DNA from: Rhodoferax koreense
Lineage (GTDB): Bacteria > Pseudomonadota > Gammaproteobacteria > Burkholderiales > Burkholderiaceae_C
Assembly (NCBI RefSeq): GCF_001955695.1
Contig: NZ_CP019236.1
Coordinates: 1,798,001 to 1,862,000 of the forward strand
Length of the DNA stretch: 64,000 nt
Direction of reading: 5' to 3'
In this document: positions 32,940 through 62,638 of the stretch, one piece after another
Layout of the letters: each line of letters begins with the position of its first letter
Position numbering within the stretch: the stretch's first letter is position 1
Position numbers and translations under genes: made by a program
Notes under the pieces: generated by a model
The model's input: only the letters and a program-made list of their open reading frames with translations
The model's database searches: none
What the model was told of the DNA's origin: nothing

Positions 32940-32953
32940 TTGATCTGACGCAA
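32940..32953. promoter_or_regulatory. FNR-like box (TTGATCTGACGCAA) before usp/dksA-like pair
   Basis: One perfect half (TTGAT) and one CGCAA half. GATGAT (32975-32980) is the -10 candidate at class II spacing, giving a leader of about 26 bases before the universal stress gene at 33014. An identical box occurs at 53419. Confidence 0.65.
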
Positions 32954-33013
32954 CAGGCCTGCAGCCGACCGGCGGATGATGGACAGCCTGAGCATTCTCT
33001 CGAAAGGGCCATC

Positions 33014-33433
33014 ATGAAGATCCTCCTGGCTGTCGACGGCAGCGACTACACCAAGCGCATGACCGAATACCTGGCCTCCCACGCCTGGCTCGTCTCTGGC
33101 AACGCGTTCACCGTACTCACCACCGTGCTGCCGGTGCCGCACCGGGCGGCCGCCTTCGTCGGCACGGAGACGGTCAAGCTGTACTACACCGATGACGCGC
33201 GCCTGGTGCTCGACCCGGTGCGCGATTTCCTGCAATCCCACGGCGTCCAGGCCGAATACGTCTACAAGGTGGGCCATCCCGCGCAGGAGATCGCGCGGTA
33301 TGCCGAGGAAAATGGTTTCGACCTGGTCATGATGGGCTCGCACGGACATGGTCTGGTGAAGAACCTGGTCATGGGGTCGGTGGCCACCAAGGTGCTTGCG
33401 CAATGCAAGGTGCCCCTGCTGCTGGTGCGTTGA
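33014..33433 (+). CDS. universal stress protein (UspA family)
   Basis: This is a 139-residue single-domain USP. It begins KILLAVDGSDYTKR and has the ATP-binding signature G-x2-G-x9-G-S (GSHGHGLVKNLVMGS) near residue 112. Such proteins bind ATP and help cells survive growth arrest and low energy. The following DksA-like gene starts immediately after its stop. It is preceded by an FNR-like box. Confidence 0.92.
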   Translation: MKILLAVDGSDYTKRMTEYLASHAWLVSGNAFTVLTTVLPVPHRAAAFVGTETVKLYYTDDARLVLDPVRDFLQSHGVQAEYVYKVGHPAQEIARYAEENGFDLVMMGSHGHGLVKNLVMGSVATKVLAQCKVPLLLVR

Positions 33434-33796
33434 ATGGACAGGCCGATCGATCACACCGAGGTGCTGCGCTGGCTTGAGGCGCGCAGCGACGAGTTGCGCG
33501 CCGAGATCGCTGCGGCGCAGCGGCTGCCCGACAGGAGCCATGAGGTGGGCGACTTCAAGGACGAGGCAACGGACAGCCTCGCGTCGACGGTGTCCGGTGC
33601 CGAGGTCGAGCGCGACCTGGCCGAACTGCGTGACAACGAACACACGCTGGCGATCATCCGCCAGGGCCGGTACGGCCTGTGCGAGGACTGCGCAGAGCCG
33701 ATCGAAGCCGCGCGTCTGCAAGCCCGGCCCGCGTCCACACGCTGCCTGGCCTGCCAGGAGGCAGCCGAACGCCGTCCTCAGGCCGCGGGCAGCTGA
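33434..33796 (+). CDS. DksA/TraR-family zinc-finger protein
   Basis: This 120-residue protein has an N-terminal helical hairpin and a C-terminal C4 zinc finger (C-x2-C-x17-C-x2-C: CEDC and CLAC) as in DksA/TraR. The coiled-coil turn region contains KDEATDS, related to the acidic tip that reaches into the RNA polymerase secondary channel. It may adjust transcription in slow growth, without or with ppGpp. ATG 33434 follows the usp stop directly. Its end overlaps the convergent acyl-CoA synthetase gene by 19 bases. Confidence 0.88.
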   Translation: MDRPIDHTEVLRWLEARSDELRAEIAAAQRLPDRSHEVGDFKDEATDSLASTVSGAEVERDLAELRDNEHTLAIIRQGRYGLCEDCAEPIEAARLQARPASTRCLACQEAAERRPQAAGS

Positions 33797-36510
33797 AGCT
33801 GTGCCGGCGCGGCCGGGGACGATGGGGTCGCCGGGCTGGAGGCGGCCAGTTCCAGGCGGAGCTGGTTCACGCCGTTCGCGCGCTGGACGTTGAAGCCCAG
33901 GCTGCGGGCCAGGCCCGCCATGGCCAGGTTGTCGGGCAGGCATTCGGCGACCAGCCGCGCCGCGCCGCGGTCGGCGGCATAGTCCCTCAGCGTGCGCATC
34001 AGCGCGGTGGCCAGGCCGTGCCGCTTGACCCAGGAGGCCACCTGCACGGCGAATTCCACGTTCACGTTGTCCGGATCGCTGAGGCCGCAGGCGTAGCCCA
34101 GCAACCGCGACTGCTGGGTGTCGGCCGCGTCGAAGGCGACGAAGGTCATCTCGCGGTCGTAGTCGATCTGGCTGTAGCGCGCGAGTTCGGAGCGTGGCAC
34201 GCAACCGCGCCGCGCGAAGAAACGCAGCCGCATGTCCTCGGTGGGCGCGGTTTCGTAGAAATGGGCGAGCGCGGCTTCGTCGTCGGGCCGGATGGGGCGC
34301 AACAGCACCCGCGTGCCATCGGGCAGGCTGCAGGGCCGGGCCAGCTCCGAAGGATAGGGGCGGATCGCCAGGCGGCCGCGGCCATCGCCTCGCAACGGGC
34401 CGAGCAGCACCCGGGCGTCCAAGGCGATCACGCCCGCGCCATCCGCGAGCAGCGGGTTGATGTCCAGCTCGGCGATCTCGGCGCAGTCGCAGACCAGCTG
34501 AGAGATCCGCACCAGCACCCGGCTGAGCGCGGCGCGGTCTGCGGCCGGCTGATCGCGGTAACCTGCGAGCAGCCGCGCCACGCGGGTGCGTGCCACCAGG
34601 TCCTCGGCCAGCGCGGCGTTCAGTGGCGGCAGGGCCACCGCGCGATCGCGCAGCACTTCCACCGCAGTGCCGCCCTGGCCGAACAGGACCACGGGGCCGA
34701 ACACGGGATCGCTGGCGACGCCGACGATCAGCTCGTGCGCGCCCGGGCGGTGCACCATCTGCTGCACGTTGAAGCCCGACAGCGTGGCCTCGGGGCGCAG
34801 GCTGCGCACCCGCTCCAGCATGGCCAGAGCGGTGGCCTCGACCTCGGTGGCGTCGCGCAGGTTCAGCGCCACGCCGCCCACGTCGGACTTGTGCGAGATC
34901 TGCGGCGACACGATCTTCAGTACCACCGGAAAGCCGATGCCTTCGGCGGCAAGCACCGCCTGGGCCGGCGTTGCCGCCAGCACCGACGCCGCCACCGGAA
35001 TGCCATAGGCGGCCAGCAGCTGTTTTGCCGCGCCTTCGCCGAGCAGGGAGCGGCCCTCGGCCAGCGCTGCCTCGATGATGCGCCGTGCGGCGGCCACGTC
35101 GGGCTGCCAGTCGTCCGGGCGCGAGGAGGGTGTCTGCAGCAGGGCTTCGCGGTTGTGCATATGGCCCACCACCTGCAGCCAGGCCGACACCGCTTCTTCC
35201 GGCGTGTCGTAGGTCGGCACGCCCGCCTCTTCGCAGAAGCGTACCGCCTGCGCGACGGCGCGCCCGCCCAGCCAGGAGGCCATCACCGTGCGGCTGCCCT
35301 GGGTCAGCAGCGGCAGGCAGGCGGCCGCGATGTCGGCGCTGGGCACGATCGCGGTCGGCGCCTGCATGAACAGTACGCCGTCGACCTCCGGCGCTCGCAT
35401 CAGCACCGACAGCGCATCCGTGTAGCGATCACAGGGGGCATCGCCCACGATGTCCACCGGGTTGCCATGCGACCATGCGGCGGGCAGCACCGCGTCCAGC
35501 GCAGCCAGGGTCGGGCCCGAGAGCGTGGCCAGGGAGCCGCCGCCCAGCGCCAGGGCGTCGGCGGCCAGCACGCCGGCGCCGCCGCCATTGGTCAGCATCG
35601 CCAGCCGGTCGCCCCGGGGCGGGCGGGCACGGGACAGCGTGCGTGCCGCGTCGAGCAGTTCCTGCAGCGTGTCCACGCGCAGCATGCCGGCGCGCCGGAT
35701 GGCGGCATCGAAGACGTCGTCGCCTCCGGCCAGGGCACCGGTGTGCGAGGCCGCGGCCTTGGCACCCGCGGGCGCGCGCCCGGCCTTCACCACCAGCACC
35801 GGCTTGTTGCGTGCGGCGGCGCGCGCGGCCGAGAGGAACTTGCGCGGCTGCTGCACCGACTCCATGTACATCAGGATGGCTTCGGTCCGCGGGTCGCTGG
35901 CGAGGTAGTCGAGCATGTCGCCGAAGTCCACGTCGGCGCAGTCGCCCATGGAGACGAAGTGCGAGAAGCCGATGCCATGGGTGTCGGCCCAGTCCAGCAT
36001 GGCGGTGGTGAGCGCCCCCGACTGCGAGAGGAAGGCCAGCTTGCCGGCCTTAGGCGATAGATGGGCGAAGCTGGCGTTCAGCCCCAGGTGCGGCACCAGC
36101 AGGCCGACGCAGTTCGGCCCCAGGATGCGCAGCAGGTGAGGGCGCGCGGCCTGCAGCATCAGCGACTGCAGGCTCTGGCCATTGGCGGTCAGCTTCTGCA
36201 TGCCGCCGCTGAGCACCACGGCCGCCCGGTTGCCGCGCCGGCCCAGTTGGGCGATCAGCTCCGGCACCGTGGCCGCCGGCGTGCACACCACGGCCAGGTC
36301 CGGGGTCTCGGGCAGGCTCTGCACGTCGGGCCAGGCCTGAACGCCGGCCACGCGCCCGTGCCCCGGGTTGACTGGCCACACGGTCCCGGTGAAGCCGGCC
36401 GTGCGCAGGTTGCGCATGACGATCTCACCCAGGCTGTGGGGTCGGTCGGAAGCGCCGATCACGGCGACGGTACGGGGCTGGAACAGGTGTTGGAGATGGC
36501 GCACGCTCAT
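33778..36510 (-). CDS. Pat-like acyl-CoA synthetase (NDP-forming)/GNAT acetyltransferase fusion
   Basis: This 910-residue protein carries a CoA-binding domain (PRTVAVIGASDRPHSLG, residues 8-130), a succinyl-CoA-ligase-like domain with SHTGALAGGDDVFDAA, an ATP-grasp domain (about 490-710) and a C-terminal GNAT domain (from about 735, LRPIRPDDEAAL to VAECLPDNLAMAGLARSLGF). This is the layout of Pat/YfiQ, which acetylates lysines such as the one that inactivates acetyl-CoA synthetase. A true ADP-forming synthetase with a GNAT tail is the alternative, as the SHTG histidine is kept. ATG 36510 has AAGGGG upstream. It shares an FNR box with the divergent PHA synthase gene. Confidence 0.88.
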   Translation of the reverse strand: MSVRHLQHLFQPRTVAVIGASDRPHSLGEIVMRNLRTAGFTGTVWPVNPGHGRVAGVQAWPDVQSLPETPDLAVVCTPAATVPELIAQLGRRGNRAAVVLSGGMQKLTANGQSLQSLMLQAARPHLLRILGPNCVGLLVPHLGLNASFAHLSPKAGKLAFLSQSGALTTAMLDWADTHGIGFSHFVSMGDCADVDFGDMLDYLASDPRTEAILMYMESVQQPRKFLSAARAAARNKPVLVVKAGRAPAGAKAAASHTGALAGGDDVFDAAIRRAGMLRVDTLQELLDAARTLSRARPPRGDRLAMLTNGGGAGVLAADALALGGGSLATLSGPTLAALDAVLPAAWSHGNPVDIVGDAPCDRYTDALSVLMRAPEVDGVLFMQAPTAIVPSADIAAACLPLLTQGSRTVMASWLGGRAVAQAVRFCEEAGVPTYDTPEEAVSAWLQVVGHMHNREALLQTPSSRPDDWQPDVAAARRIIEAALAEGRSLLGEGAAKQLLAAYGIPVAASVLAATPAQAVLAAEGIGFPVVLKIVSPQISHKSDVGGVALNLRDATEVEATALAMLERVRSLRPEATLSGFNVQQMVHRPGAHELIVGVASDPVFGPVVLFGQGGTAVEVLRDRAVALPPLNAALAEDLVARTRVARLLAGYRDQPAADRAALSRVLVRISQLVCDCAEIAELDINPLLADGAGVIALDARVLLGPLRGDGRGRLAIRPYPSELARPCSLPDGTRVLLRPIRPDDEAALAHFYETAPTEDMRLRFFARRGCVPRSELARYSQIDYDREMTFVAFDAADTQQSRLLGYACGLSDPDNVNVEFAVQVASWVKRHGLATALMRTLRDYAADRGAARLVAECLPDNLAMAGLARSLGFNVQRANGVNQLRLELAASSPATPSSPAAPAQLQLPAA

Positions 36511-36561: not shown

Positions 36562-36575
36562 TTGACGCGGATCAA
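36562..36575. promoter_or_regulatory. FNR box (TTGACGCGGATCAA) between acyl-CoA synthetase/GNAT and PHA synthase genes
   Basis: Nine of ten consensus positions match. TATGCT (36598-36603) to the right and GAAAGT (36534-36539, minus strand) to the left both lie at class II -10 distance. A single site could therefore activate both directions. Confidence 0.8.
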
Positions 36576-36646: not shown

Positions 36647-38400
36647 ATGGATTCCGATACGCCAGAGCCGAATGCCGCCGGCGCCAATCCCTATCTCGAC
36701 CTCGACCGCAGCCTGCATGCCGCCATGGGCAGGTTGACGCAAGGCTTTCACCCGCCTCATTCATGCTGGCCTACCTCGACTGGCTGCTGCACCTGGCGAT
36801 CTCGCCCGGCCGGCAGCTGGCCCTGGCCGAAGAGGCGCGGCAAGCCCTGCTCCAATGGCTGCCCGTGGCGCCGCCCGCGCAGGAAGGTCAGCCCGCGTCG
36901 GCGGAGGATGACGTGCGGGGCGGCGACCGTCGCTTCGACGATCCGGCCTGGAACACCTGGCCCTTCGACATGCTCAAGCGCGGCTTCCTGCTCGGCCAGC
37001 GGTGGTGGCAATCGGCCGCCACCGGCGTGCGCGGGGTGAGCCGGCACCACGAGGACGTGGTGGCCTTCGGTGCGCGGCAGTGGCTGGACACCCTGTCGCC
37101 ATCCAACTTCCTGTGGACCAATCCGCAAGCGCTGCGCGCCGTGCAGCAGGAACGGGGGCAGGGCCTCGCGCGCGGCATGCTGAACCTGATGGACGACGCG
37201 GCGCGCCTGGGCGGCGGCACACCGCCGGGCCATCCCAGCCGCTTCCGACCGGGGCACGAGCTCGCCGCCACCCCGGGCAAGGTCGTGTTCCGCAACCACC
37301 TGATCGAGTTGCTGCAGTACAGCCCGGTCACGGAGACGGTGTTTCCCGAGCCTGTGCTGATCGTGCCGTCCTGGATCATGAAGTACTACATCCTGGACCT
37401 TTCGCCGCAGAATTCCCTTGTCCGCTACCTGGTCTCGCAGGGGTACACGGTGTTCATGGTGTCGTGGCGCAACCCCGGTGCCGAAGACCGGGCGCTCGAC
37501 ATGGCCGATTACCTGGCGCTCGGCCCGGTGGCGGCGATGGACGCGGTGGCCGAGCTGCAACCCGGCCGCAAGGTGCATGCGGCGGGCTATTGCCTGGGCG
37601 GCACGCTGCTGGCCATCGCGGCTGCGGCCTGGGCGCGTGAAGGCCGCGACTCGCTCGCGTCGCTGACGCTGCTCGCGACGCAGACCGATTTCGAGGAGCC
37701 TGGCGAACTGTCGCTGTTCATCGACGACAGCCAGATCACCTACCTCGAGGACATGATGTGGCAGACCGGCTACCTAGACGGCCCGCAGATGGGCGCCAGC
37801 TTCACCTACCTCAACACCCGCGACCTGCTGTGGTCGCGCATGGTGCGCGACTACCTGCTCGGTGCGCGCCTGCCGCCGAACGATCTGACGGCCTGGAACC
37901 TGGACACGACGCGCATGCCCTACCAGATGCATGTGCAGTACCTCAAGAGCCTGTACCGCGACAACGCGCTCGCGCGCGGCGCGTACCAGGTCGGGGATCA
38001 CCCGGTGGCGCTGTCGGACCTGGACGTTCCGGTGTTTGCCGTCGGCACGCTGAAGGACCACATCTCGCCCTGGCGCTCGGTCTACAAGCTGCACCTGCTC
38101 ACCGATGCGGAACTGAGCTTCGTGCTCACCAGCGGCGGCCACAACGCCGGGATCCTGAGCGAGCCGGGCCATGCGGGGCGCAGCTACCGCATCCATGGCC
38201 GCCCGCGCAACGGCAAGTACCTCGGGCCCGAGGAATGGCTGGCGCAGGCCGAGGAGCGCGAGGGGTCGTGGTGGCCGGCCTGGCAGGCCTGGCTGGCCGA
38301 ACGCTCCGGCCCGCGCACGGCCCCGCCGCCAATGTGCGGCGTGGCCGGCATGGGCCGTGTGCTGCGCAACGCGCCGGGTGAATATGTCCTCCAACGCTGA
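36647..38400 (+). CDS. phaC: PHA synthase-family protein, frameshifted near the N-terminus
   Basis: This is a polyhydroxyalkanoate polymerase-type alpha/beta hydrolase. ATG 36647 (GAGGA upstream) opens with PNAAGANPYLDLDRSLHAAM, but after the TTT at 36746-36748 the similarity moves to the next frame (SPASFMLAYLDWLLHLA). One missing T explains this, and the corrected product is 584 residues. The rest is intact: nucleophile box GYCLGGT, Asp in LKDHISPW and His in GGHNAGI. It is either a real lesion, a sequencing error, or translation starts inside at ATG 36763 (545 residues). It overlaps the P-type ATPase start. Confidence 0.8.
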
Positions 38401-40933
38401 CCCGCTGCAGGGTCTGAGCGAGGTCCATGCGCAGGCGCTGCTGGCCGCTCACGGGCCCAACGAGCTGGCCGCCACGCGGCGGCATGGATGGCTGCACAGC
38501 CTGTACGAGGTGCTGCGCGAGCCGATGTTTCTGCTGCTGGTCGCCTGTGCGGCGCTCTATTTCATGCTGGGCGAATGGCGCGAAGCGGTTGCGCTTTCGG
38601 TCTCCGTGCTGGTGGTGATGGGCATCACCCTGGTGCAGGAGCGCCGCAGCGAGCGCGCGCTCGATGCCCTGCGCGAGCTGGCCAGTCCGCGGGCGTTGGT
38701 GCTGCGCGATGGCGTCCCGCGCGCGGTGGATGCGCGCGAGCTGGTGCCGGACGATGTCATGCTGCTCTGCGAAGGCGACCGCGTGCCGGCCGACGGCGTG
38801 CTCCTGCGCGCCCACAACCTCCTGGTGGACGAGTCGCTGATCACCGGCGAGTCGCTGCCGGTCGCCAAGGAGGCCGACGCGGCGGCGCCCGGCGGCGTGC
38901 AGCACGGCGCTGCGGTTAGGGTCCATGCCGGCTCGCTGGTGGTGCAGGGCCGGGCCCGGGCACTCGTCACCGCGACCGCGCACCGCAGCGAGATCGGACG
39001 CATCGGCGCCGCTTTGAACGACATCGTGCGCGAACGGACACCGCTGCAGGAGGCCACCGGGATGCTGGTGCGCAAGGTGGCCTTCGGCGTGCTGGCGGTG
39101 GCGCTCGGCATGGCGCTGGTGCTGGGCTGGACCCGAGGCCACTGGATCGAGGCGACGCTGGCCGCCGTGGCCTGGGCCATGGCGCTGCTGCCCGAGGAGT
39201 TTCCGGTCGTGCTGGCGATCTTCCTGGCGATCGGTGCCTGGCGGATCTCGCGTCAGCGCGTGTTGACGCGGCGCATGCCGGCCCTGGAAGCATTGGGCGC
39301 GGCCACCGTGCTGTGTGTGGACAAGACCGGCACGCTGACGGAAAACCGCATGCAGGTGGTCAGGCTCTACAGCGCCGACGGCCACATGCAGCGCATCGGC
39401 ACGGCGCTCTCCACGGCCGGGCTGGCGCCTGCGTTCACCGAGGTGCTGCGGGTGGCGGGGCTGGCCAGTCCGGCCGATACCGCCGATGCGATGGAGCAGG
39501 CCATCCAGGCCGCATGCGCCCAGGCCTCGCTGCCCGCGCGGCCCACGGGCTGGGTGCCGTTGCGCGAATACCCGCTGAGCCCGCAGTTGCTGGCCGTGGC
39601 GCATGCCTGGCAGCCCGAGCGGGTCGCACCGGCCTTCGTCGCCGTGAAGGGGGCCCCCGAGGCGATTGCCGGGCTGTGCGGCATGCCGCCGGACCGGACG
39701 GCCGCGACGCTTTCCACGGTGGAGCAGCTCGCCCACGCCGGGCTGCGGGTGCTGGGCGTGGCGCGTGCCGAGGTCGCCCGGGAGGCACTGCCGGCGCGGC
39801 TGGCCGACCTGCGGTTCGAATTCGTGGGCCTGCTGGCGCTGGCGGACCCGGTGCGGCGGGAAGTGCCGCAGGCCATCCGCCGCTGCGAGCAGGCCGGCAT
39901 CCGCGTCATCATGGTCACCGGCGACTTCGCCGGTACCGCAGCCAGCATCGCCACCGAGGCCGGCATTGACGCGGGCGAAGGCATCCTCGCGGGCGCCGAG
40001 ATCGACGCGCTCGACGAGACCGCCCTGGGCGAGCGCCTGCGTCGTGTGCGGGTGGTCGCACGGGCCGTGCCCGCGCAGAAACTGCGGATCGTGCGGGCGT
40101 TGCAGCGCAACGGCGAAGTGGTGGCGATGACCGGCGACGGCGTCAACGACGCGCCGGCGCTGCGCGCGGCCGACATCGGTATCGCCATGGGCGGGCGCGG
40201 CACCGACGTGGCCCGCGAGGCGGCCGATCTGATCGTCACCGACGACCGCTTCAGCTCCATCGTCGAGGCGATCGCCGTCGGCCGGCGCATCTTCGCCAAC
40301 CTGACGCAGGCTTGCGGTTACCTGGTGGCCATCCACATTCCGATCGCGGGTCTTTGCCTGCTGCCTGTGATCGGCGGCGGACCGCTGGTGCTGCTGCCGA
40401 TCCACATCGCCATGCTCGAGCTGATGATCGATCCCGCGTGCTCGCTGGCCTTCGAGGCGCAGCCCTCCGAGTCGCAGGCGATGTCGCGCCCGCCGCGCCG
40501 CGCGCGCAGCTCGCTGTTCGGCGATGCCGGCGTGTGGCCGTGGGTCGTGCGCGGGCTGCTGGTGCTGGGCTCCGTGCTGCTGGCCTGCGCCGCGGCCCGC
40601 GCCGCGCGGCTCGACGAGGAAGGCGTGCGCACCGCGGCCTTTGCCCTGCTGGTGCTCGGCAACGTGGCGCTTCTGCTCAGCTATCGCACCGGCGACAGGC
40701 GCCCGGCCGACGGCGCTGCGGCGGTCAGCCTGGCGATGCTGGCGTCGATCGCCGTGGCGCTGGGCATGTTGGCCACCGTGCTGGCTTGGCCGGCCGCGCG
40801 GGATCTGTTTCGGCTCGCATGGCCCTCGCCGGCGCAGCTCGGCATCGGCCTGGCGATCGCTGGATGCAACTGGGCCTTGCTGGCACTGGTGTCCCGCAGC
40901 CTGGGCACGCGGCGGCCGGCTTCGATACCGTGA
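38384..40933 (+). CDS. cation-translocating P-type ATPase (P2-type)
   Basis: This 849-residue membrane pump has the N-terminal cation ATPase domain (LSEVHAQALLAAHGPNELA), actuator motif TGES, helix-4 motif LLPEEFPVV, phosphorylation site DKTGTLTEN, KGAPE, and hinge TGDGVNDAPAL, with about ten membrane helices. No CPC or metal-binding domain is present, so heavy-metal transport is unlikely; Ca2+ or another light cation is more likely. PEEFP differs from the PEGLP of typical calcium pumps, so I leave the ion open. ATG 38384 lies inside the last codons of the PHA synthase gene, so the two are co-translated. Confidence 0.9.
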   Translation: MSSNADPLQGLSEVHAQALLAAHGPNELAATRRHGWLHSLYEVLREPMFLLLVACAALYFMLGEWREAVALSVSVLVVMGITLVQERRSERALDALRELASPRALVLRDGVPRAVDARELVPDDVMLLCEGDRVPADGVLLRAHNLLVDESLITGESLPVAKEADAAAPGGVQHGAAVRVHAGSLVVQGRARALVTATAHRSEIGRIGAALNDIVRERTPLQEATGMLVRKVAFGVLAVALGMALVLGWTRGHWIEATLAAVAWAMALLPEEFPVVLAIFLAIGAWRISRQRVLTRRMPALEALGAATVLCVDKTGTLTENRMQVVRLYSADGHMQRIGTALSTAGLAPAFTEVLRVAGLASPADTADAMEQAIQAACAQASLPARPTGWVPLREYPLSPQLLAVAHAWQPERVAPAFVAVKGAPEAIAGLCGMPPDRTAATLSTVEQLAHAGLRVLGVARAEVAREALPARLADLRFEFVGLLALADPVRREVPQAIRRCEQAGIRVIMVTGDFAGTAASIATEAGIDAGEGILAGAEIDALDETALGERLRRVRVVARAVPAQKLRIVRALQRNGEVVAMTGDGVNDAPALRAADIGIAMGGRGTDVAREAADLIVTDDRFSSIVEAIAVGRRIFANLTQACGYLVAIHIPIAGLCLLPVIGGGPLVLLPIHIAMLELMIDPACSLAFEAQPSESQAMSRPPRRARSSLFGDAGVWPWVVRGLLVLGSVLLACAAARAARLDEEGVRTAAFALLVLGNVALLLSYRTGDRRPADGAAAVSLAMLASIAVALGMLATVLAWPAARDLFRLAWPSPAQLGIGLAIAGCNWALLALVSRSLGTRRPASIP

Positions 40934-53372: not shown

Positions 53373-53418
53373 ATCAAGCGGCGCGACGATGCACGTGTCG
53401 TGCGCCCGTCGCACCGGC

Positions 53419-53432
53419 TTGATCTGACGCAA
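53419..53432. promoter_or_regulatory. FNR-like box (TTGATCTGACGCAA) for usp-exporter operon
   Basis: Identical to the box at 32940. AAGAAT (53455-53460) is exactly at class II -10 spacing, giving a leader of about 57 bases before the usp gene at 53524. Confidence 0.65.
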
Positions 53433-53523: not shown

Positions 53524-53976
53524 ATGTACAAGAAAATCCTGGTTCCGCTCGATGGCAGCGACACGGCCGAGCGCGGGCTTCTCGAGGCCATGCGCATGGC
53601 GTCCGAGTTGAAGGCCACGCTGGTGCTGCTGCATGTGATCGACGACTTTCCCATGCTGGTGGAGATGGCCAGCGTGCAGGCCTATGAGGAAACCATGGCG
53701 CACCTGCGCTCGGTCGGGCAGCGGCTGCTCGACGGTGCGCAGAAGTCCGCCGAGGAATCCGATGTCGCCGCCGAGACCCGGCTGCGCGAGATCACGCGCG
53801 AACGGGTCGGCCAGGCGATCGTCGAGGAGGCGGGTGCGGCCGGCTGCGACCTGATCGTCATGGGCACGCACGGCCGGCGCGGTTTCAACCGGGTCATGAT
53901 GGGCAGCGATGCCGAATTCGTCGCACGCGCCAGCACGGTGCCGGTGCTGCTCGTGCGCTCGGTCTCGGGCACCTGA
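53524..53976 (+). CDS. universal stress protein (UspA family)
   Basis: This is a 150-residue USP, MYKKILVPLDGSDTAERGL at the start and GTHGRRGFNRVMMGS as the ATP signature. It has no C-terminal extension. AGAGG lies before the ATG. Its stop overlaps the HlyD gene start (TGATGG), making it the first gene of an exporter operon, an unusual setting for a USP. Confidence 0.93.
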   Translation: MYKKILVPLDGSDTAERGLLEAMRMASELKATLVLLHVIDDFPMLVEMASVQAYEETMAHLRSVGQRLLDGAQKSAEESDVAAETRLREITRERVGQAIVEEAGAAGCDLIVMGTHGRRGFNRVMMGSDAEFVARASTVPVLLVRSVSGT

Positions 53977-55079
53977 TGGCGGGCGTGCCACCGCGACTTC
54001 GCAGGGCGGCCGCCTGGGGGCTGCCGATCGCTGCCGTGCTGCTGGCCGCCGGCGTGTGGTGGCGCCTGGCGCCCGAGCCTTCGCTGGCCGGTGTGGTCGG
54101 CGGCAACGGACGGCTGGAGGCGGTGGAGATCGACATCGCGGCCAAGACCGCCGGACGGCTGAAGACGGTGCGGGTGCACGAGGGCGACATGGTCTCGGCC
54201 GGCCAGGTGGTGGCCGAACTCGCCACCGAAACCCTCGACGCGGAGCTGGCGCGCGCACGTGCCCAGGTCGCGCAGGCGGTTCATGCGCGCCAGACGGCCG
54301 AGGCGCAAGTGGCGCTGCGACTGCAGGCCGAGCAGACGGCGCTGGCCACGGTGGCCCAGCGCCAGAGCCAGCTGGCCCTGGCCGAGCGCGACATGCAGCG
54401 CACGCGGGAACTGGTCGACCAGCAATTCCTCGCGCCGCAGAAGCTCGACGAGGCGCGCGCGCAGAACGACGGCGCGCGCGCCGTGCTGGCTGCGGCGCTG
54501 TCGCAGGTTGCCGAAGCCAGGCAGGCCATCGCCGCCGCGCGCGCCCAGGCGGTGGAGGCGGAGGCCTCGATCGACGCGGCACGCGCTGGTGTGCTGAGCC
54601 TGCAGGCCAGCCTGGACGACAGTGTGCTGCGCGCACCGCGCAACGCGCGGGTCCAGGTGCGCGCCGCCGAGGAAGGGGAGATCGTGGCCGCCGGCACGCG
54701 CATCCTCTCGCTGGTGGACCTGAGCGACGTGACCATGAATTTCTTCCTGCCCGAAGTGGCCGCCGGCCGCACGCCGATCGGCGCCGAGGTGCGCATCGTG
54801 CTGGATGCGGCGCCGCAATGGGCGATACCGGCGCGGGTGTCGTTCATCGCCAGCGTCGCCCAGTTCACGCCCAAGACCGTGGAAACGCTGGACGAACGCA
54901 ACAAGATGGTGTTCCGGGTGCGGGCCCGCATCGACCCGGCGCTGCTGGCGCGCTATGGCGCGCAGGTGAAGACCGGCCTGCCCGGCATGGCCTATGTCCG
55001 CACCGACCCGGCGCTGCCGTGGCCGGCGCGCTTGCAGACCTCGCTGCCCGCCGCGCCGGCGGAGGGCGCATCGCCATGA
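53976..55079 (+). CDS. HlyD-family membrane fusion protein
   Basis: This 367-residue periplasmic adaptor has one N-terminal membrane helix ([15 protein letters not shown]), a biotinyl-lipoyl-like region ([21 protein letters not shown]), a long Ala-rich coiled-coil hairpin (about residues 90-220), and a beta-barrel segment with [24 protein letters not shown] sequence. It bridges the inner-membrane ABC pump encoded next with an outer-membrane channel, which is not encoded here. It is translationally coupled to the usp gene before it. Confidence 0.92.
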
Positions 55080-55123
55080 GCCGCGCGCGAGACTGGGGTG
55101 TTGCGTGTCCGTCGGCGCCGTGA
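55076..55123 (+). CDS. possible 15-codon coupling ORF between hlyD and the ABC gene
   Basis: ATG 55076 overlaps the hlyD stop (ATGA), and the frame, [15 protein letters not shown], ends in a TGA at 55121-55123. That stop overlaps a GTG (55120) in the frame of the ABC transporter. It may only pass ribosomes from hlyD to the next gene, or it may mark a lost in-frame start of that gene. Speculative. Confidence 0.3.
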
Positions 55124-57882
55124 ACCGCGCGGCCGGTGTCGCGGCGCGACTCGTGCAGGTGGGGCACCGCTACGCAGACCGTGTGGCGCTGGACGATGTC
55201 ACGCTCGAACTCGCCGAGGGTGCGATGCTGGGGCTGATCGGCCCGGACGGCGTCGGCAAGTCCACCCTGCTGGCGCTGCTGGCCGGCGCCAGGCAGATGC
55301 AGGCCGGGCGCATCGAGGTGTTGGGCGGCGACATGGCCAGCGGACGGTTCCGGGAGCGCGTGTGCCCGCGCATCGCCTACATGCCGCAAGGCTTGGGCCG
55401 CAACCTCTATGCCAACCTGTCGGTGCGGGAGAACATCGCATTCTTCGCCCGGCTGTTCGGCCACAGCCAGCGCGAAGGCGCGCGGCGCAGCGCCGAACTG
55501 CTGGCCGCCACCGGCCTTGCGCCTTTCGCCGACCGGCTCGCCGGCCAGCTTTCGGGCGGCATGAAACAGAAGCTGGGGCTGTGCTGCGCCCTGATCCACG
55601 ACCCCGATCTGCTGATCCTGGACGAGCCGACCACCGGGATCGATCCGCTTTCGCGCCGGCAGTTCTGGGAGCTGATCGGCCGGATGCGCTCCGCGCGGCA
55701 GCGCGGGTCGGCGGTGCCGATGACGGTGCTGGTCGCCACCTCGATCATGGACGAGGCCGAGGGCTTCGAGCACATCGTGGCCATGCACGCCGGCCGGATC
55801 CTGGGGCAGGGCAGCCCGGCCGAGCTGATGGCGCGCACCGGCACGCCCACGCTGGACGCGGCCTTCATCGCCCTGCTGCCGCAGGCCGAGCGGGGGCCGC
55901 CGGCCGACGCGGCGGCGGCGCCGCGCGATCTGGCCGATGCGCCGGTGGCCATCGAGGCGAGCGGCCTGACCTGCCGCTTCGGGGATTTCGTCGCCGTGGA
56001 CGACGTGAGTTTCAGCATCCGCCGCGGCGAGATCTTCGGCTTCCTCGGCTCGAACGGCTGCGGCAAGACGACCACGATGAAGATGCTCACCGGCCTGCTG
56101 CCGGCCAACGCCGGCAGCGCCAGCCTGTTCGGCAAGCCCATCGATGCACGCGACCTGGAAACGCGGCGCCAGGTGGGCTACATGTCGCAAGGCTTCTCGC
56201 TGTATGCCGAGCTCACCGTGCGCCAGAACCTGCGGCTGCACGCGCAACTCTTCGGCATGCCGCCGGACCGGGTGGAGGCCCGCATCGCCGAGATGCTGGA
56301 GCGCTTCGACCTGCTGAACGTGGCCGATGCCTGGCCCGAGGGCCTGCCGCTCGGCCACCGCCAGCGCCTGCAGCTTGCCGTGGCGGTGGTGCATGCGCCG
56401 CGCCTGTTGATCCTGGACGAGCCGACATCGGGCGTGGACCCGGTGGCGCGCGATCGCTTCTGGCGGCTGATCCTCGAGCTGGCGCGCACCGATGGTGTGA
56501 CGATCTTCATCTCGACGTATTTCATGAACGAGGCCCAGCGCTGCGACCGCATCTCGCTGATGCACGCGGGCCGGGTGCTGGCCAGCGACACCCCGGCCGC
56601 GCTGGTCGCGCGCTTCGGCGCGCGCACACTGGAGGAGGCCTTCGTCGCCTGCCTGCTGGCCGCGCAGGCGGCGCCCGGCCCGAACGCCGCCGCACCCCTG
56701 TCGCAGGCCGCCGCAACCCCGGTGGCAGCGGCTGCGCCGGAGGGACGGCCCGGCCCTTTCGGGCTGCGCCTGCAGCGGCTGTTCGCCTATGCGTGGCGCG
56801 AGCAGCTCGAACTGCGCCGCGACCCGATCCGCCTGGTCATGGCCCTGCTCGGCACGTTGTTGCTGATGCTGATCATGGGCTACGGCATCAGCCTGGACGT
56901 GAAGGACCTGCGCTTCGCGGTGCTGGACCATGACCGCACACCGGCCAGCCGCGCCTACGTGCAGGAGTTCTCGGGCTCGCCGTACTTCAAGGTGCAGCCG
57001 GCCATTCTGGATGGCGCGGACATGGAGCGGCGTATGCGCAGCGGCGAGCTGACGGTGGCCATCGAGATCCCGAGCGGCTTCGGCCGCGACGTGTTGCGCG
57101 CCACGCCGACCGCTGTCGGCGTGTGGATCGACGGCGCGATGCCGATGCGCGCGGAGAACGTGTCGGCCTATGTGCAGGCGCTGCACGCGGGTTACCTCGC
57201 GCAGGCGGCGGCACAGCGCGGACGGGCCGACGCGGCGCTGGCCTCGGTGGCCTTGCGCTACCGCTACAACCCCAACATGCGCAGCCTGGATGCGATGGTG
57301 CCGGCGGTGATCCCGATTCTGCTGATCTTCGTGCCAGCGATGCTCACCGCGCTGGGCGTGGTGCGCGAGAAGGAACTGGGCTCCATCGTCAACCTCTACG
57401 TGACGCCGGTGACGAGGCTCGAGTTCCTGCTCGGCAAGCAACTGCCCTACGTGGCCGCCGGCCTGGTCAATTTCGCGCTGATGGCGACGATGGCGGTGTG
57501 GGTCTTTGGCGTGCCGTTCAAGGGCAGCCTGCTCACGTTGGCCGCGGCGGCCGTGGCCTATCTGTTCGCCGCCACGGGGCTGGGCCTGCTGATGTCGGTG
57601 TTCATGCGCAGCCAGATTGCGGCGATCTTCGGTACGGCGCTGGCGACCATGCTGCCGGCGATCCAGTTCTCCGGCATCCTGACGCCGGTGTCATCGCTCG
57701 AAGGCCTCGGTGCCTGGATCGGGCGCGTCTATCCCACCGGACCGTTCCTCACGATCAGCCGCGGCGTGTTTTCCAAGGCGCTGGGTTTCGCGGACCTGCG
57801 CAACGAGTTCATGCCGCTGCTGGCGGCGGCCGCCCTGCTGCTGTCGTTGAGCGTGGCGCTTCTGCGTCGGCAGGCGCCATGA
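55105..57882 (+). CDS. fused ABC exporter: ATPase-ATPase-permease (RbbA/YhiH-like)
   Basis: This protein of about 925 residues has two ABC ATPase domains (residues about 10-260 and 285-520) and an ABC-2 permease with about six membrane helices (560-925). The first ATPase has [20 protein letters not shown] and [12 protein letters not shown]. The second has GSNGCGKTT and [12 protein letters not shown], but its signature reads LPLGHRQ, so one ATP site may be weak. The start is unclear: GTG 55105 (GGGG upstream) or GTG 55120. With the HlyD and second permease genes it forms a multidrug-type exporter of unknown substrate. Confidence 0.9.
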
Positions 57883-59030
57883 GCCGGCATGGTGATCCAG
57901 CCCTGTTGGCCTGGCTGCGTACTGTGGCGCGGCTGGGCGTGAAGGAACTGCGCAGCCTGTGGCGCGACCGGCTGCTGCTGCTCCTGGTGCTGTGGGCGTT
58001 CTCCGGCGGCATCTACAGCGCGGCCAGCAGCGCGCCCGATACGCTGCGCCGTGCGGCCGTCGCCGTGGTGGACGAAGACCAGTCGCCGCTGTCGCAGCGC
58101 ATCACCACGGCCTTGTATCCACCTTCTTTCAAGTTGCCGGAGCAGGTGTCGGTGCAGCGCATGGACGCCGGGCTCGACCGCGGGCTCTACACCTTCGTGC
58201 TGCAGTTGCCGAGCGGGCTGCAGCGCGACGTGCTGGCCGGCCGCGCGCCGGCCATGCAGCTCAACGTCGATGCCACCCAGATGACGCAAGCCTTCGTGGG
58301 CGCGGCCACGATCGAGCGCATCGCGCTGGGCGAGATCGCCGAGTTCGTGCAGCGCGATCGCGTCGCGGTGCCATCGGCGGTCGAGCTGGAACTCCGCATG
58401 CGTTTCAATCCGACCTTGGAGCCGCGCTGGTTCATGGGGGTGATGCAACTGATCAACGAAATCACCATGCTGTCCATCATCCTCACCGGCGCGGCGCTGA
58501 TCCGCGAACGCGAACACGGCACGCTGGAGCACATCCTGGTGTTGCCGGTGACGCCGCTGCAGATCATGGTCTCCAAGGTCTGGGCGATGGGACTGGTGGT
58601 GCTGGTGGCGGCTGCGCTGTCGCTGCATTTCGTGGTCCAGGGGGCGCTGCACACACCGATCGCCGGCGCCACGGCGCTGTTCCTGGCCGGCTGCGCGCTG
58701 CACCTGTTCGCCATGACGGCCATGGGCATCTACCTCGGCACCGTGGCCCGCTCCATGCCGCAACTCGGGCTGCTGATCATCCTGGTGCTGCTGCCGCTGC
58801 AACTGCTGTCGGGTGGATCGACGCCACGCGAGAGCATGCCCGAGGCGGTGCAGTTCGTGATGCTGGGCGCGCCCACCACGCATTTCGTGAGCTTCGCGCA
58901 GGCCATCCTCTACCGTGGCGCGGGGCTGTCCATCGTCTGGCCGCATTTCGCCGCCATCGCACTGATCGGCGCGGTGTTCTTCATCGCGGCACTGCGCCGG
59001 CTGCGCCTGTCGGTGGCCAGGCAGGGCTGA
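57879..59030 (+). CDS. ABC-2 type permease
   Basis: This 383-residue membrane protein has an N-terminal helix ([17 protein letters not shown]), a periplasmic loop of about 170 residues, and five C-terminal helices. It has the ABC-2 motif [22 protein letters not shown] after the second helix. It pairs with the permease half of the preceding fusion. Its ATG overlaps the preceding stop (ATGA). It is the last gene of the usp-hlyD-ABC operon. Confidence 0.92.
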
Positions 59031-59047: not shown

Positions 59048-59061
59048 TTGCGCCAGGTCAA
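59048..59061. promoter_or_regulatory. FNR-like box (TTGCGCCAGGTCAA)
   Basis: TTGCG and GTCAA halves. If the box centre is at -41.5, the start of transcription falls exactly on the A of ATG 59096, with CAAACT (59084-59089) as the -10. Confidence 0.6.
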
Positions 59062-59095: not shown

Positions 59096-60646
59096 ATGGA
59101 CGCCTCGAACTCTGATATCGGCCCCGACCCATCGCTGGCGCTGGCCTTGCAGCAACGCCTGGGGGAGGAGACCGGCCAGCGGGTGGAACTGATCGAAACG
59201 CCGATTTCCTGGGTGCTGCTGACGGAGCGGCTGGTCTACAAGCTGAAGAAGCCTGTGCGACGGCCGTTCCTGGATTTCAGCACTGCGGCGCTGCGCAAGC
59301 ACTTCTGCGAGGAGGAACTGCGCCTGAACCGGCGGCTGGCGCCATCGCTGTACCTGGGCGTGCTCCCCGTTCGCGGGACGGTGGCCGCGCCGCGGCTGGG
59401 CGGCGGCGGCCCGGAAATCGACCATGTCGTGGCCATGCGCCGCTTTGCCAAAGGGGCACTCTTCAGTGAGCTGCTGGCGGCCGGTGGGCTCGAGCCGGCG
59501 CACGTGGACGCGCTGGCGCGCCGTATCGCCGACTTCCACCGCGACGCGCAGCTCGTGCCGTTGCCCGCGGGCGCGCAGGCCGATGCCGCCGACCCGGTGC
59601 TCGACATCCTTCGGCAGCTCGAGGAAGGCGCCTACCCCGGCGAGACCGGCGCGCTGCGGGCGTGGGTGCACGAGCAGGCCGCGCTGCTGCGCGACACCTG
59701 GAATTTCAGGCTGCGCAGCGGGCTGGTGCGCGAGTGCCATGGCGACCTGCACCTGGGCAACGTCGCGTTGGTGGATGGCATGCCCACCGCCTTCGACCGG
59801 CTCGAATTCAACGAATCGCTGCGTTGGACCGATGTCATGAGCGATGTCGCCTTCCTGACCATGGACCTCAAATCGCGCGGCCGCAACGACCTGGCCTTCC
59901 GTTTCCTGGACGTCTACCTGCAGCACACCGGCGACTATGCGGGCGTGGCCGTGCTGCGCTTCTTCGAGGTCTACCGGGCGCTGGTGCGAACCCTGGTGGA
60001 AGTCGGGAATGACGGGCCACGGCGCGGCGCCCTGCCCAGCCAGGCCGAGGCGTATTTCGGCCTGGCCGTGCGCCTGACGCGGCCCGACCGGGCTGCGGCC
60101 CGCATCCTCATCACGCACGGCGTCTCGGGTTCTGGCAAGTCCAGCGTCGCAGCGCGGCTGGTGGAGCAGCAGGGCGCGGTACGGGTGCGTTCCGATGTGG
60201 AACGCAAGCGCCTGTTCGGGCTCGATCCGCTGCAGCGGTCCAGCGGCCAACCGTTCGACATCTACACGGAAGACGCGACGCGGCAGACCTTCGAGCGCAT
60301 GGCGGAGGCGGCGCGCGTGGCGGTGCGCTCGGGCTATCCGGTCATCGTGGACGCGGCTTTCCTTCGTCATGCGCAGCGCCATCTCTTTCGCGAGCTGGCC
60401 GACGAACTCGGCGTGCCATTTTCGATCCTGCACTGCCATGCGGACCCGGTGTTGTTGCGCGCGCGGCTGCATGCGCGCGAGCAGGCCGGGGACGATCCTT
60501 CCGAGGCGGACGATGCCGTCGTCGAGCGCCAGCGCACGTTTCGCGAGCCGCTGCGCGACGAAGAATTGCCACTGGTGATCGATGTCTGCACCGATGCGCC
60601 GGTGGACGCCAAGGTGCTGCACGCGCGGTGCCTGGCGGTGGCGTGA
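59096..60646 (+). CDS. bifunctional APH-like phosphotransferase/AAA kinase
   Basis: This 516-residue protein joins an aminoglycoside-phosphotransferase-like domain (residues 1-330: KLKKPVRRPFLDFS, catalytic CHGDLHLGNV, FDRLEFNESLRWTDVMSDVAFLTMDL) to a P-loop kinase (about 335-516: THGVSGSGKSS, later VRVRSDVERKRLFGL). The two families (COG2187 and COG0645) are often fused and accompany usp genes in hypoxia regulons. The substrate is unknown; drug resistance is unlikely. No Shine-Dalgarno sequence lies near the ATG (GGAGG is 18 bases away), fitting a leaderless message. Confidence 0.88.
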   Translation: MDASNSDIGPDPSLALALQQRLGEETGQRVELIETPISWVLLTERLVYKLKKPVRRPFLDFSTAALRKHFCEEELRLNRRLAPSLYLGVLPVRGTVAAPRLGGGGPEIDHVVAMRRFAKGALFSELLAAGGLEPAHVDALARRIADFHRDAQLVPLPAGAQADAADPVLDILRQLEEGAYPGETGALRAWVHEQAALLRDTWNFRLRSGLVRECHGDLHLGNVALVDGMPTAFDRLEFNESLRWTDVMSDVAFLTMDLKSRGRNDLAFRFLDVYLQHTGDYAGVAVLRFFEVYRALVRTLVEVGNDGPRRGALPSQAEAYFGLAVRLTRPDRAAARILITHGVSGSGKSSVAARLVEQQGAVRVRSDVERKRLFGLDPLQRSSGQPFDIYTEDATRQTFERMAEAARVAVRSGYPVIVDAAFLRHAQRHLFRELADELGVPFSILHCHADPVLLRARLHAREQAGDDPSEADDAVVERQRTFREPLRDEELPLVIDVCTDAPVDAKVLHARCLAVA

Positions 60647-60688: not shown

Positions 60689-60717
60689 ATTTCAAATTTA
60701 TCAAATAAATTTGAAAT
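60689..60717. promoter_or_regulatory. perfect 13-bp A/T-rich palindrome upstream of histidine kinase
   Basis: ATTTCAAATTTAT (60689-60701) and ATAAATTTGAAAT (60705-60717) are perfect inverted repeats around CAA. It stands out as the most A/T-rich point in the right half of the window. TTTATCAAATA inside it recurs at 22197-22207 ahead of another histidine kinase. It is a likely operator, or possibly a nucleoid-protein site. Confidence 0.6.
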
Positions 60718-60810
60718 CACCTACACTTCGTCCGCTTGCGACGGATGTGCGGCACACATTGGGTGATGCCTGTCCGCCGCGAGAAGGGGCCTTCCGACGG
60801 CCCGGGAACC

Positions 60811-62628
60811 ATGCAAACCTCCACCACCGACACCGCACCGGGCCTGGCGGCCTGGGACGCCCCTGATCCATCCGGCGGCGCTGCCGCGCGCCCGTCGCCA
60901 GCTGGCTCCGGCATTCGTGGCGCGCTGCTCGAGCGACTCGCGGGCTCGCGCCTCGACTGGCGCGTCGGACTGGTGATTTCGGTCGTGCTGCTGCTCACTT
61001 GGTTGTTCGTGGCCGGGGGGGTGGTCGTCTCCAGGCGGGCGGCGCTCGATGCCGAGGTCCGGCAAAACGGCAACCTGGCCTTGGCGTTGGAGGCGCAGAC
61101 CATCCGTGTGCTGGCTTCGGCGGATCAGGCCACGCTGCGCATGGGGGATGCGGTGCGTTCGGGCGAGTTCCAGGCCGCGGACTTCAAGCGTTTCGCCAAC
61201 GAGACCGGCCTGGTGCCGCAAATCCTCACGCAGCTGTCGCTGATCGGTCCTGACGGGCGCTTCATCGGCAGCAACATCGATCCCGGCGCCGAGGCCACCG
61301 GCCATGTCGACCTGTCGGGCCGGGAGCATGTCCAGGCGCACCTGGGCACCCTGGTCGCGCCGGAGGTGGCGCGCCAGATTGCCGGCAATGGCCTGTTCAT
61401 CGGCAAGCCGGTGTTGGGCAAGGTGTCGGGCAAATGGACGATACAGCTGTCGCGCCGGATCAGCGATGCCCAAGGCAAGGTGCTGGGCGTGGTGGTGGCG
61501 TCGCTGAACCCGGGCTATTTCGAAGAGATCTACCGGGGCGTGCGGCTCGGCAGACAGGGCAGCGTGGCGCTACTGGGCGACGACAACTCCGTGCGCGCGC
61601 GGGTGATGGGCGGGGACAGTCAGGGCATGGGCAGCCTGCTGTCGGGCAGCGGCGATGAACGGCGCGGCCGCGAGGGGCACTACACCCGCGTCAGCAGCCT
61701 GGACGGGGTGGAGCGCGTGTTCGCCTACCGCCGCGTCGGCGACTATCCGCTGATGGTGTCCGTCGCCACGAGTATTTCGGAGGCCCTGGGGGAATGGCGC
61801 CACCACCGCGATCTGGCGCTGGTGATTACCGCGTTGTTCAGCCTGGCCACGGTCGGTGCCGCCGTCATCTTTGTGCGCAGCGTGCGCCAGCTGGAGGTCA
61901 AGAACGCCGCGCTGCAGGCCAGCGAGGCACAGGCGCGTTCAGCGAGCCAGGCCAAGAGCGAGTTCCTGGCGGCGATCTCGCACGAACTGCGCACACCGCT
62001 GACCAGCATCCGGGGCTTCGCGGAGTTGATGGAGCTGCGCCTGGAGCAACCCCGCTACAAGGAGACGGCGGGCCTGATCCGCAAGGCCTCCGAACATCTG
62101 AACGACCTGCTGACCGAAATCCTGGACCTGGCCAAGGTGGAGGCCGGCGCGATGCCGTTCATGCCGGCGGCGCACCAGGTGGGCGACCTCGTGCGGTCCA
62201 CGGCGGACCTGTTCACGATCACCGCTGCTTCCAAGAATCTGGATCTGCAGGTCGACCTCGCGCCGGATGTTCCCCGCACGCTGCATTGCGACGGGCTGCG
62301 CGTAAAGCAGGTGCTCAACAACCTGCTGTCCAACGCCATGAAGTTCACCGCGGCGGGCTCGGTGCGCATCGAAGTCGACGCGGACCCGCAGCACGTCCGC
62401 TTCCACGTGGTAGACACCGGCCCCGGCATACCCGCGCACCTGCACGAGACGATCTTCGAGAGGTTCCGCCAGGCGGACGACCGGGTCAGCTACCAGCATG
62501 GCGGCACGGGGCTCGGCCTGGCCCTGTCGCGGGCGCTGGCCATCCGCATGGGCGGCGGCCTGTCGCTCGTCTCCGAAGAAGGGCAAGGGGCCCGCTTCAC
62601 GCTCTGCCTGCCGCGCGAGCGGGTTTGA
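60811..62628 (+). CDS. membrane sensor histidine kinase with Cache-like periplasmic domain
   Basis: This kinase of about 605 residues has two membrane helices (about residues 50-72, VGLVISVVLLLTWLFVAGGVVV, and about 333-355). Between them is a periplasmic region that looks like a PAS/Cache sensor (LIGPDGRFIGSNIDPG, DLSGREHVQAHLG). The cytoplasmic part has SHELRTPLTSIRGFAEL, NLLSNAMKFT, DTGPGI and GTGLGLALS. No receiver is attached or adjacent. The start is uncertain: ATG 60811, or upstream starts at 60745 or 60736 closer to the palindrome. Its last codon overlaps the FNR box of ccoI. Confidence 0.87.
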   Translation: MQTSTTDTAPGLAAWDAPDPSGGAAARPSPAGSGIRGALLERLAGSRLDWRVGLVISVVLLLTWLFVAGGVVVSRRAALDAEVRQNGNLALALEAQTIRVLASADQATLRMGDAVRSGEFQAADFKRFANETGLVPQILTQLSLIGPDGRFIGSNIDPGAEATGHVDLSGREHVQAHLGTLVAPEVARQIAGNGLFIGKPVLGKVSGKWTIQLSRRISDAQGKVLGVVVASLNPGYFEEIYRGVRLGRQGSVALLGDDNSVRARVMGGDSQGMGSLLSGSGDERRGREGHYTRVSSLDGVERVFAYRRVGDYPLMVSVATSISEALGEWRHHRDLALVITALFSLATVGAAVIFVRSVRQLEVKNAALQASEAQARSASQAKSEFLAAISHELRTPLTSIRGFAELMELRLEQPRYKETAGLIRKASEHLNDLLTEILDLAKVEAGAMPFMPAAHQVGDLVRSTADLFTITAASKNLDLQVDLAPDVPRTLHCDGLRVKQVLNNLLSNAMKFTAAGSVRIEVDADPQHVRFHVVDTGPGIPAHLHETIFERFRQADDRVSYQHGGTGLGLALSRALAIRMGGGLSLVSEEGQGARFTLCLPRERV

Positions 62629-62638
62629 CCTAGGTCAA
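62625..62638. promoter_or_regulatory. FNR box (TTGACCTAGGTCAA) for ccoI
   Basis: This is a perfect 14-bp palindrome overlapping the stop codon of the histidine kinase. With the centre at -41.5 the start of transcription falls on the A of ATG 62673, and TAAGCT (62661-62666) is the -10. Confidence 0.78.

Follow-up and report, generated by a model that had tools for sequence, protein, structure and literature searches.

The lxa locus of Burkholderia cenocepacia comprises about 50 genes and, according to the gene list in PMC6127331, includes six usp genes (two encoding proteins of about 30 kDa) together with genes for Hsp20, a BON protein, cytochrome c, a flavin/nitro reductase, a zinc alcohol dehydrogenase and a 51-kDa protein of the metallo-beta-lactamase superfamily; the same source already compares lxa with the DosR regulon and names BCAM0049 as a candidate regulator. 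Here we describe a locus of this type in Rhodoferax koreense, located in a 64,000-nucleotide window (positions 1798001-1862000 of the largest of the three contigs that make up the 5.90-Mb genome; G+C content of the window, 67.8%) and continuing beyond its right end. This 49-kb stretch very probably holds survival genes that are switched on when oxygen runs out and, as judged from its DNA, is very likely under FNR control. We regard it, with high confidence, as a lxa-type low-oxygen survival island whose transcription units would be activated by the oxygen-sensing regulator FNR.

When matched to the published gene list, the island resembles lxa in its six usp genes (two of them long) and in its Hsp20, BON, cytochrome c, flavin reductase, alcohol dehydrogenase and metallo-beta-lactamase genes, and its 46 gene calls between 33 and 82 kb (window scale, as are all coordinates below unless stated) are close in number to the approximately 50 genes of lxa. 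It differs in being joined to cbb3 oxidase genes and in having PhaC, phasin, RbbA and an APH-AAA kinase. Phosphofructokinase and phosphate acetyl/butyryltransferase, both lxa genes, were not seen among the proteins scanned, some genes to the right of the window being unscanned. The discovery of lxa is reportedly described by Sass et al. 2013 (ISME J), which may already describe the boxes, and we do not present FNR boxes in lxa as new to the literature.

In strain H111, which is without lxa, an anr1 anr2 double mutant fails to survive anoxia, as stated in PMC9104464. According to the portions of PMC5934665 consulted, Fnr of Herbaspirillum seropedicae activates dksA-phaC2-fabI, usp, phasin and hemN2-fixIS genes, with Fnr1 directly regulating dksA-phaC2-fabI and, together with Fnr3, two usp genes; the organism has two interacting Fnr paralogues, for which Fnr3-Fnr1 heterodimers were proposed. 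This regulon is like the island in its Fnr-controlled dksA, phaC, usp and phasin genes and its pair of Fnr paralogues, but a compact island of this size is not described in those portions. An earlier sequence-only reading of the window had seen in the locus a counterpart of the Mycobacterium DosR regulon. The two have the same sort of families (usp, Hsp20), and we treat the likeness as an analogy, without claiming common descent. The families in common also include ctpF, an Rv2004c-type kinase and a storage-lipid synthase. DosR is a two-component regulator, whereas FNR is an Fe-S regulator.

Clustering of FNR boxes

Strict boxes were defined as TTGAYN4RTCAA, mixed boxes as one TTGAY half and one TTGCG half, and CG/CG boxes as two TTGCG halves; a looser pattern, TTGMBN4VKCAA, was searched as well, and sequence shuffles and reversed patterns served as controls. 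The window contains seven strict sites where 0.11 are expected and 16 sites of the looser pattern where 1.85 are expected, numbers that none of 100 shuffles attained in either case. Genome-wide (5.9 Mb), 25 strict sites were found against six with the reversed control pattern, and eight of the 25 fall in a span of 49.3 kb (32.8-82.1 kb) where 0.21 would be expected (binomial 2e-11, for a span picked after the boxes were seen). As a genome-wide detector the looser pattern was rejected, its 182 sites (110 with the reversed control) being mostly noise.

Within the 49.3-kb span lie 18 boxes, eight strict, nine mixed and one CG/CG, all of them intergenic. By comparison, 20 evenly spaced 20-kb background stretches of the same genome (400 kb) contain three strict boxes, one mixed and one CG/CG, of which three are intergenic. 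Per kilobase of intergenic DNA, this corresponds to 1.72 strict and 1.94 mixed boxes in the island, versus 0.033 and 0.016, respectively, in the background. The sequence-only reading had offered box frequency relative to intergenic DNA elsewhere in the genome as the comparison that could refute it; since the island is far denser, this test favors the finding.

All 14 island boxes that it had listed exist, 13 at the exact coordinate and the one given as 53359 starting at 53360, and all 19 boxes of its definition in the 123 kb in which we called genes (with our own script, proteins being named through Pfam and NCBIfam) are intergenic. Within the interval, the histidine kinase unit at 60811-62628 lacks a box of its own. 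The boxes were also said to be in the right number for divergent pairs, which is correct only in part: of the eight box-bearing divergent gaps (one of them outside the window), four have two boxes and four have one, and three of these single-box gaps have a −10 on both sides. Three further boxes had been placed near fnr-ompW-hemN, where the one at 9894 fits while those at 10749 (TTGATCCCGCACAA) and 13012 (ATGACCTGTCTCAA) lie outside the pattern that the reading itself used. The site at 13012 was rejected as an FNR box because of this mismatch and its overlap with the hemN start. The degenerate box at 10749-10762, before ompW, is followed by TCCAAT 22 bp on and may be a weak FNR site.

Promoter geometry

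The −10-like hexamers were scored with a weighting of our own at each offset from a box, and we assigned the gene directions ourselves, giving each box of a paired gap to its own side. In 22 of the 23 gene-assigned directions the best hexamer within the 18-27 bp range lies at 21 or 22 bp, which bears out the class II spacing noticed in the sequence-only reading; a spacing of 22 bp puts the box center at −41.5, the class II position. None of the 15 unassigned directions scores at least 8 at 21 or 22 bp, and eight of these are the inward sides of paired boxes, which face a more distant start. The mean best −10 score was 9.44 versus 5.74 +/- 0.34 in shuffles, a value reached in none of 5000. Boxes 36562, 42367 and 46677 have a −10 at class II spacing on both sides. 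Class II FNR geometry at nearly every promoter is strong sequence evidence for a direct oxygen-sensing link to a lxa-type locus, and such a regulon is therefore predictable from DNA alone.

The preference recurs in foreign loci, where, among 277 strict-box sides, scores of at least 9 number 84 at the 21-bp and 23 at the 22-bp offset, versus a mean of 2.7 per other offset. A score of at least 8 was reached by 71 of the 123 gene-facing sides and by 9 of the 39 other intergenic sides in a set of 16 selected loci; by these counts, many foreign sides break the spacing rule.

The fnr genes and a model for activation

Gene calls and protein scans revealed that the island extends past the right end of the window, taking in ccoI and the cbb3 oxidase genes, as far as a second fnr (fnr2; genome positions 1877561-1878283, window scale 79561-80283, L016:16561-17283), located 162 bp from a strict box. 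The sequence-only reading had the island next to an fnr gene, but the one it pointed to (fnr1) is 22 kb to the left of the first box of the island, and it is fnr2, likewise a true fnr, that belongs to the extended island. Both proteins score over the NCBIfam Fnr cut-off (228.1 and 228.5 versus 228), share the motif CxxCxxxxxC and have LET[VI]SR in their recognition helices. The two should accordingly recognize the same boxes, and either could be the one that acts. Adjoining fnr2, at L016:14911-16557, lies a gene whose protein joins a cyclic-nucleotide-binding domain to a pyridine nucleotide-disulphide oxidoreductase.

In the model that we propose, FNR would lose its 4Fe-4S cluster in the presence of oxygen and the island promoters would be silent, while a fall in oxygen would allow FNR dimers to bind the 14-bp boxes, centered at −41.5 or −40.5, and to act on RNA polymerase as class II activators. 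In four of the divergent gaps each direction would have its own box, and in three others a single box would serve two promoters. The products could plausibly protect an energy-starved cell, with Usp proteins, Hsp20 and HtrA for its proteins, PhaC and phasin for a carbon store, the cbb3 oxidase for the last traces of oxygen, and alcohol dehydrogenase and flavodoxin-type reductases for redox balance.

Relatives on chromosomes and plasmids

The closest named relatives of the island are Variovorax loci, in which ccoN is 89-90% identical. Relatives were collected through the beta-CASP protein (best 80 named loci, usp presence being judged with our own usp profile). A usp gene is present in 16 of the 80 loci, and in 12 of these it is accompanied by one box or more: Variovorax (2), Pandoraea (2), Paraburkholderia (3), Trinickia, Cupriavidus, Pseudomonas fluorescens, an Aquabacterium metagenome-assembled genome and a betaproteobacterial one. 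In the other 68, usp and/or a box was not found with a gene caller that depends on codon G+C and calls few or no genes in AT-rich loci (e.g. L125, L139, L142, L161), so gene absence there says little. Loci of B. pyrrocinia and B. stagnalis each bring together relatives of the beta-CASP, usp and Fnr proteins, accompanied by alcohol dehydrogenase relatives in the former and by BON and Hsp20 relatives in the latter. Related islands are found in two genomes from other families. In one (G022), many strict boxes accompany Fnr, usp, Pat-like, P-type ATPase, beta-CASP, Hsp20, kinase and cbb3 genes, and the second (G015) has Fnr, the Pat-like gene, the P-type ATPase and cbb3 genes, usp not being found there. 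Other stretches around Pat-like relatives (e.g. G221, G229, G244, G245) contain little or none of the island.

A strict box is present in 29 and a mixed box in 16 of the 113 regions upstream of island-gene relatives, versus 60 and 10, respectively, of the 737 regions upstream of other genes (reversed controls, 0), in a comparison that omits loci L132-L170 (except L136 and L138), genes no more than 50 bp from a same-strand predecessor and upstreams shorter than 120 bp. Among seven congeners examined, three have a close Pat-like gene, and TTGCGCCAGATCAA precedes it in all three; these three have kept the Pat-like gene (two of them PhaC too), and the rest of the island is not nearby. Beta-CASP relatives at E<=1e-60 are present in three of the seven congeners and are merely 44-46% identical. 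Given both observations, the island is patchy in the genus.

Beta-CASP relatives at E<=1e-80 occur in 112 plasmid records, eight of which were examined at the locus; very large records of the plasmid collection (e.g. B. stagnalis, 3.2 Mb) may be chromosomes. The nearest relatives among the records examined are Variovorax records of 1.2 and 2.5 Mb. Plasmid pPHS1_P of Paraburkholderia graminis (494 kb, typed conjugative by MOB-suite) carries annotated genes for five usp, Hsp20, BON, two nitroreductases, a P-type ATPase and its own fnr, with nine strict boxes in 41 kb and none with the reversed control. The P. phytofirmans plasmid pOLGA1 was typed as non-mobilizable and has five usp genes, an ATP synthase operon, the arginine deiminase pathway and 11 strict boxes in 37 kb; its fnr relative, annotated merely as helix-turn-helix, is 50% identical to fnr2. 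Acidovorax p1-T1 has the beta-CASP gene, and annotated usp or fnr genes were not found within the 25 kb examined. Among the papers listed in searches for a plasmid-borne or island-type case, no title or abstract opening reports one.

Promoter grammar by lineage

Spacing was compared by counting sides of strict and mixed boxes with a −10 score of at least 8.5 at 21 versus 22 bp. The ratio was 6:14 in the 123 kb around the window, 0:4 at other loci of the same genome, 2:6 in congeners, 9:26 in Variovorax, 13:8 in G022 and G015, and 62:13 in the group formed by Burkholderia, Paraburkholderia, Trinickia, Pandoraea and Cupriavidus. The first and last of these differ at 1.4e-5 (Fisher), but homologous promoters are counted repeatedly, so the figures overstate independence. 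Mixed boxes account for 17 of 35 sides in Variovorax versus 2 of 75 in the Burkholderia-Cupriavidus group. The lineage of the window and Variovorax favor 22 bp and tolerate a CGCAA half-site, while Burkholderiaceae favor 21 bp and strict boxes.

Mixed sites in the examined loci (n=47) have a promoter on the CGCAA side in 27 cases, on the other side in five, on both in five and on neither in 10; the bias in the R. koreense genome is 7 versus 1, the exception being the other side of a two-way box. Across 120 genomes of the window's family it is 133 versus 88 sites (totals counted by eye from tables, twice; reversed controls 4 and 10) and 66 versus 46 genomes, and 300 genomes of the order show no excess by genome tally (122 versus 117). 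Orientation was thus rejected as a general rule, since it fades in the wider searches, and is a lineage tendency only.

Loci of this kind are already known, with lxa gene content and the DosR comparison in print; the promoter evidence here is unusually clear. To this we add related islands that share this promoter grammar, from other named Burkholderiales; some are plasmid-borne, and one of these is typed conjugative and has its own fnr. A tentative possibility, which we would rate as somewhat short of even, is that lxa-type islands are portable, self-contained anoxia-survival modules with their own FNR sensor and matching promoters, which would move among Burkholderiales on plasmids and then have their promoter grammar retuned as a set to the host lineage, 21 bp and strict in Burkholderiaceae, 22 bp and CG-tolerant with often oriented boxes in Variovorax-like hosts. 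The plasmid copies suggest that a cell can gain anoxia survival as a package. The 1-bp shift in spacing between lineages, which recurs over many promoters, would allow a direct test of whether promoter grammar evolves as a set.

Alternative explanations

Several observations weigh against activation of the island by FNR as proposed. FNR regulation is a prediction from DNA, and both the −10 score weighting and the assignment of directions are ours. At box 80438 the only −10 lies on the side opposite fnr2, a gene that may thus not be under the control of this box. Strict boxes are also found ahead of 60 of the 737 other genes, and the 31 regions upstream of beta-CASP relatives have a strict box in only three and a mixed box in two; box and gene are therefore not always coupled. 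Finally, the genome has 26 HTH_Crp_2 matches, 19 of them over the curated cut-off, and another CRP/FNR-family protein could therefore use some of the boxes. If such a protein, for example a Dnr/NnrR- or FixK-like paralogue, were the main activator, the signal would be nitric oxide or redox state. One CG half-site is present in 9 of the 18 island boxes, and FixK-type proteins are reported to tolerate this half-site. We nonetheless consider this quite unlikely, given two true Fnr genes, both beside strict boxes and one in the extended island, and strict boxes that fit the Fnr consensus.

Compatible with FNR activation, and a refinement of it, is the idea that Fnr1-Fnr2 heterodimers read mixed boxes in a fixed orientation and homodimers the strict ones. 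In its favor are the two paralogues, the orientation of mixed boxes in the examined loci and in the R. koreense genome, and the heterodimers proposed in H. seropedicae (PMC5934665), but the bias is weaker in the family and, by genome tally, absent in the order, and the common recognition helix predicts no difference in base reading; we consider it an unlikely addition. A PAS histidine kinase and a NarL-type response regulator, encoded on the left flank of the island (28468-30596) ahead of a GGDEF-EAL protein, might instead form a primary switch of the DosRS type, with the FNR boxes minor. Their position is consistent with this, and in loci of Pandoraea, Cupriavidus and Paraburkholderia the best-matching kinase and regulator genes have fnr and usp genes close by. 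The motif of the NarL-type regulator was unsearched, but FixL and FixJ models score far under their cut-offs and the class II geometry would be hard to explain if the boxes were minor, so we judge such a switch very improbable. The commonness of the looser pattern genome-wide could be taken to indicate that the boxes arose by chance or from base composition in DNA rich in G+C, an explanation that is scarcely credible when shuffles, reversed controls, background stretches and −10 geometry all oppose it.

Gene content of the window

Pfam matches agree with the hypoxia and stress gene set named in the sequence-only reading, including six Usp, the ADP-forming acyl-CoA synthetase with GNAT, PhaC, phasin, beta-CASP, Hsp20, HtrA-like, APH-AAA kinase and P-type ATPase proteins (Table 1). 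Its ABC exporter (55105-57882) is instead RbbA, a ribosome-associated ATPase (NCBIfam equivalog NF033858, 1445.7 bits versus a cut-off of 1050).

Table 1. FNR boxes and genes of the island and of the outlying fnr1, in window coordinates (PHA, polyhydroxyalkanoate; −10 hexamers are given with their distance from the box).
Feature	Position	Strand	Basis
Strict FNR box before fnr1, CAGAAT 21 bp downstream	9894..9907	+	pattern, −10 scan
fnr1, outlying fnr, 263 codons including stop, N-terminal CxxCxxxxxC	9960..10748	+	NCBIfam NF008365, 228.5 bits, cut-off 228
Mixed FNR box TTGATCTGACGCAA, GATGAT at 21 bp, before usp-dksA	32940..32953	+	pattern, −10 scan
Universal stress protein (Usp)	33014..33433	+	PF00582
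DksA/TraR-type zinc-finger protein	33434..33796	+	PF01258
ADP-forming acyl-CoA synthetase fused to GNAT (Pat-like)	33778..36510	-	PF13549, PF13607, PF13380, PF00583
Strict FNR box, two-way, −10 at 22 bp each side	36562..36575	.	pattern, −10 scan
PHA synthase (PhaC)	36763..38400	+	PF07167
Cation-transporting P-type ATPase	38384..40933	+	PF00122, PF00689, PF00690
Beta-CASP/RMMBL metallo-hydrolase	40935..42290	-	PF10996, PF07521
Strict FNR box, two-way, −10 at 22 bp each side	42367..42380	.	pattern, −10 scan
Long Usp, 272 aa	42448..43266	+	PF00582
Zinc-type alcohol dehydrogenase	43280..44263	+	PF08240
Three-BON-domain protein	44304..44957	-	PF04972, 3 stretches
Mixed FNR box, TAGACT at 21 bp, before BON gene	45048..45061	-	−10 scan
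Mixed FNR box, TAGCTT at 22 bp, before usp	45129..45142	+	−10 scan
Long Usp, 276 aa	45204..46034	+	PF00582
Flavodoxin-like protein	46090..46617	-	PF12724, below curated cut-off
Mixed FNR box, two-way, TAGAGT and TACAGT at 21 bp	46677..46690	.	−10 scan
Phasin	46857..47360	+	PF09361
Flavodoxin-fold NAD(P)H reductase	47500..47997	+	PF02525, PF03358
Unknown protein	48020..48670	-	no Pfam match
Strict FNR box, AAAAAT at 21 bp	48894..48907	-	pattern, −10 scan
Mixed FNR box, TAGACT at 22 bp, before hsp20	48963..48976	+	−10 scan
Hsp20/alpha-crystallin	49068..49487	+	PF00011
c-type cytochrome	49526..49894	-	PF13442, below curated cut-off
Usp	49891..50421	-	PF00582
Strict FNR box, AATACT at 22 bp	50482..50495	-	pattern, −10 scan
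CG/CG box TTGCGTTGGCGCAA, GACACT at 22 bp	50522..50535	+	−10 scan
Unknown protein	50594..51223	+	no Pfam match; 54% match in Variovorax island
HtrA/Deg-like protease	51588..52730	+	PF13365, PDZ domains
Usp	52743..53261	-	PF00582
Strict FNR box, AATACT at 22 bp	53360..53373	-	pattern, −10 scan
Mixed FNR box, AAGAAT at 22 bp	53419..53432	+	−10 scan
Usp	53524..53976	+	PF00582
Three genes: HlyD-type adaptor, RbbA, ABC-2 permease	54036..59030	+	PF13437, NF033858, PF12698
Mixed FNR box, CG half distal, CAAACT at 22 bp	59048..59061	+	−10 scan
APH-AAA_33 kinase	59096..60646	+	PF01636, PF13671
dCache-type histidine kinase, no box of its own	60811..62628	+	PF02518, PF00512, PF22588; PF02743 just under cut-off
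Strict FNR box, TAAGCT at 22 bp, before ccoI	62625..62638	+	pattern, −10 scan
ccoI-like P-type ATPase, continues to 64997	62742..64000	+	PF00122, PF00702 on the part in L016

An Rfam scan at the gathering threshold gave a tRNA as the sole match in the window. Beyond its right end, the genes after ccoI match annotated loci of relatives that bear ccoN, ccoO, ccoP and ccoG.

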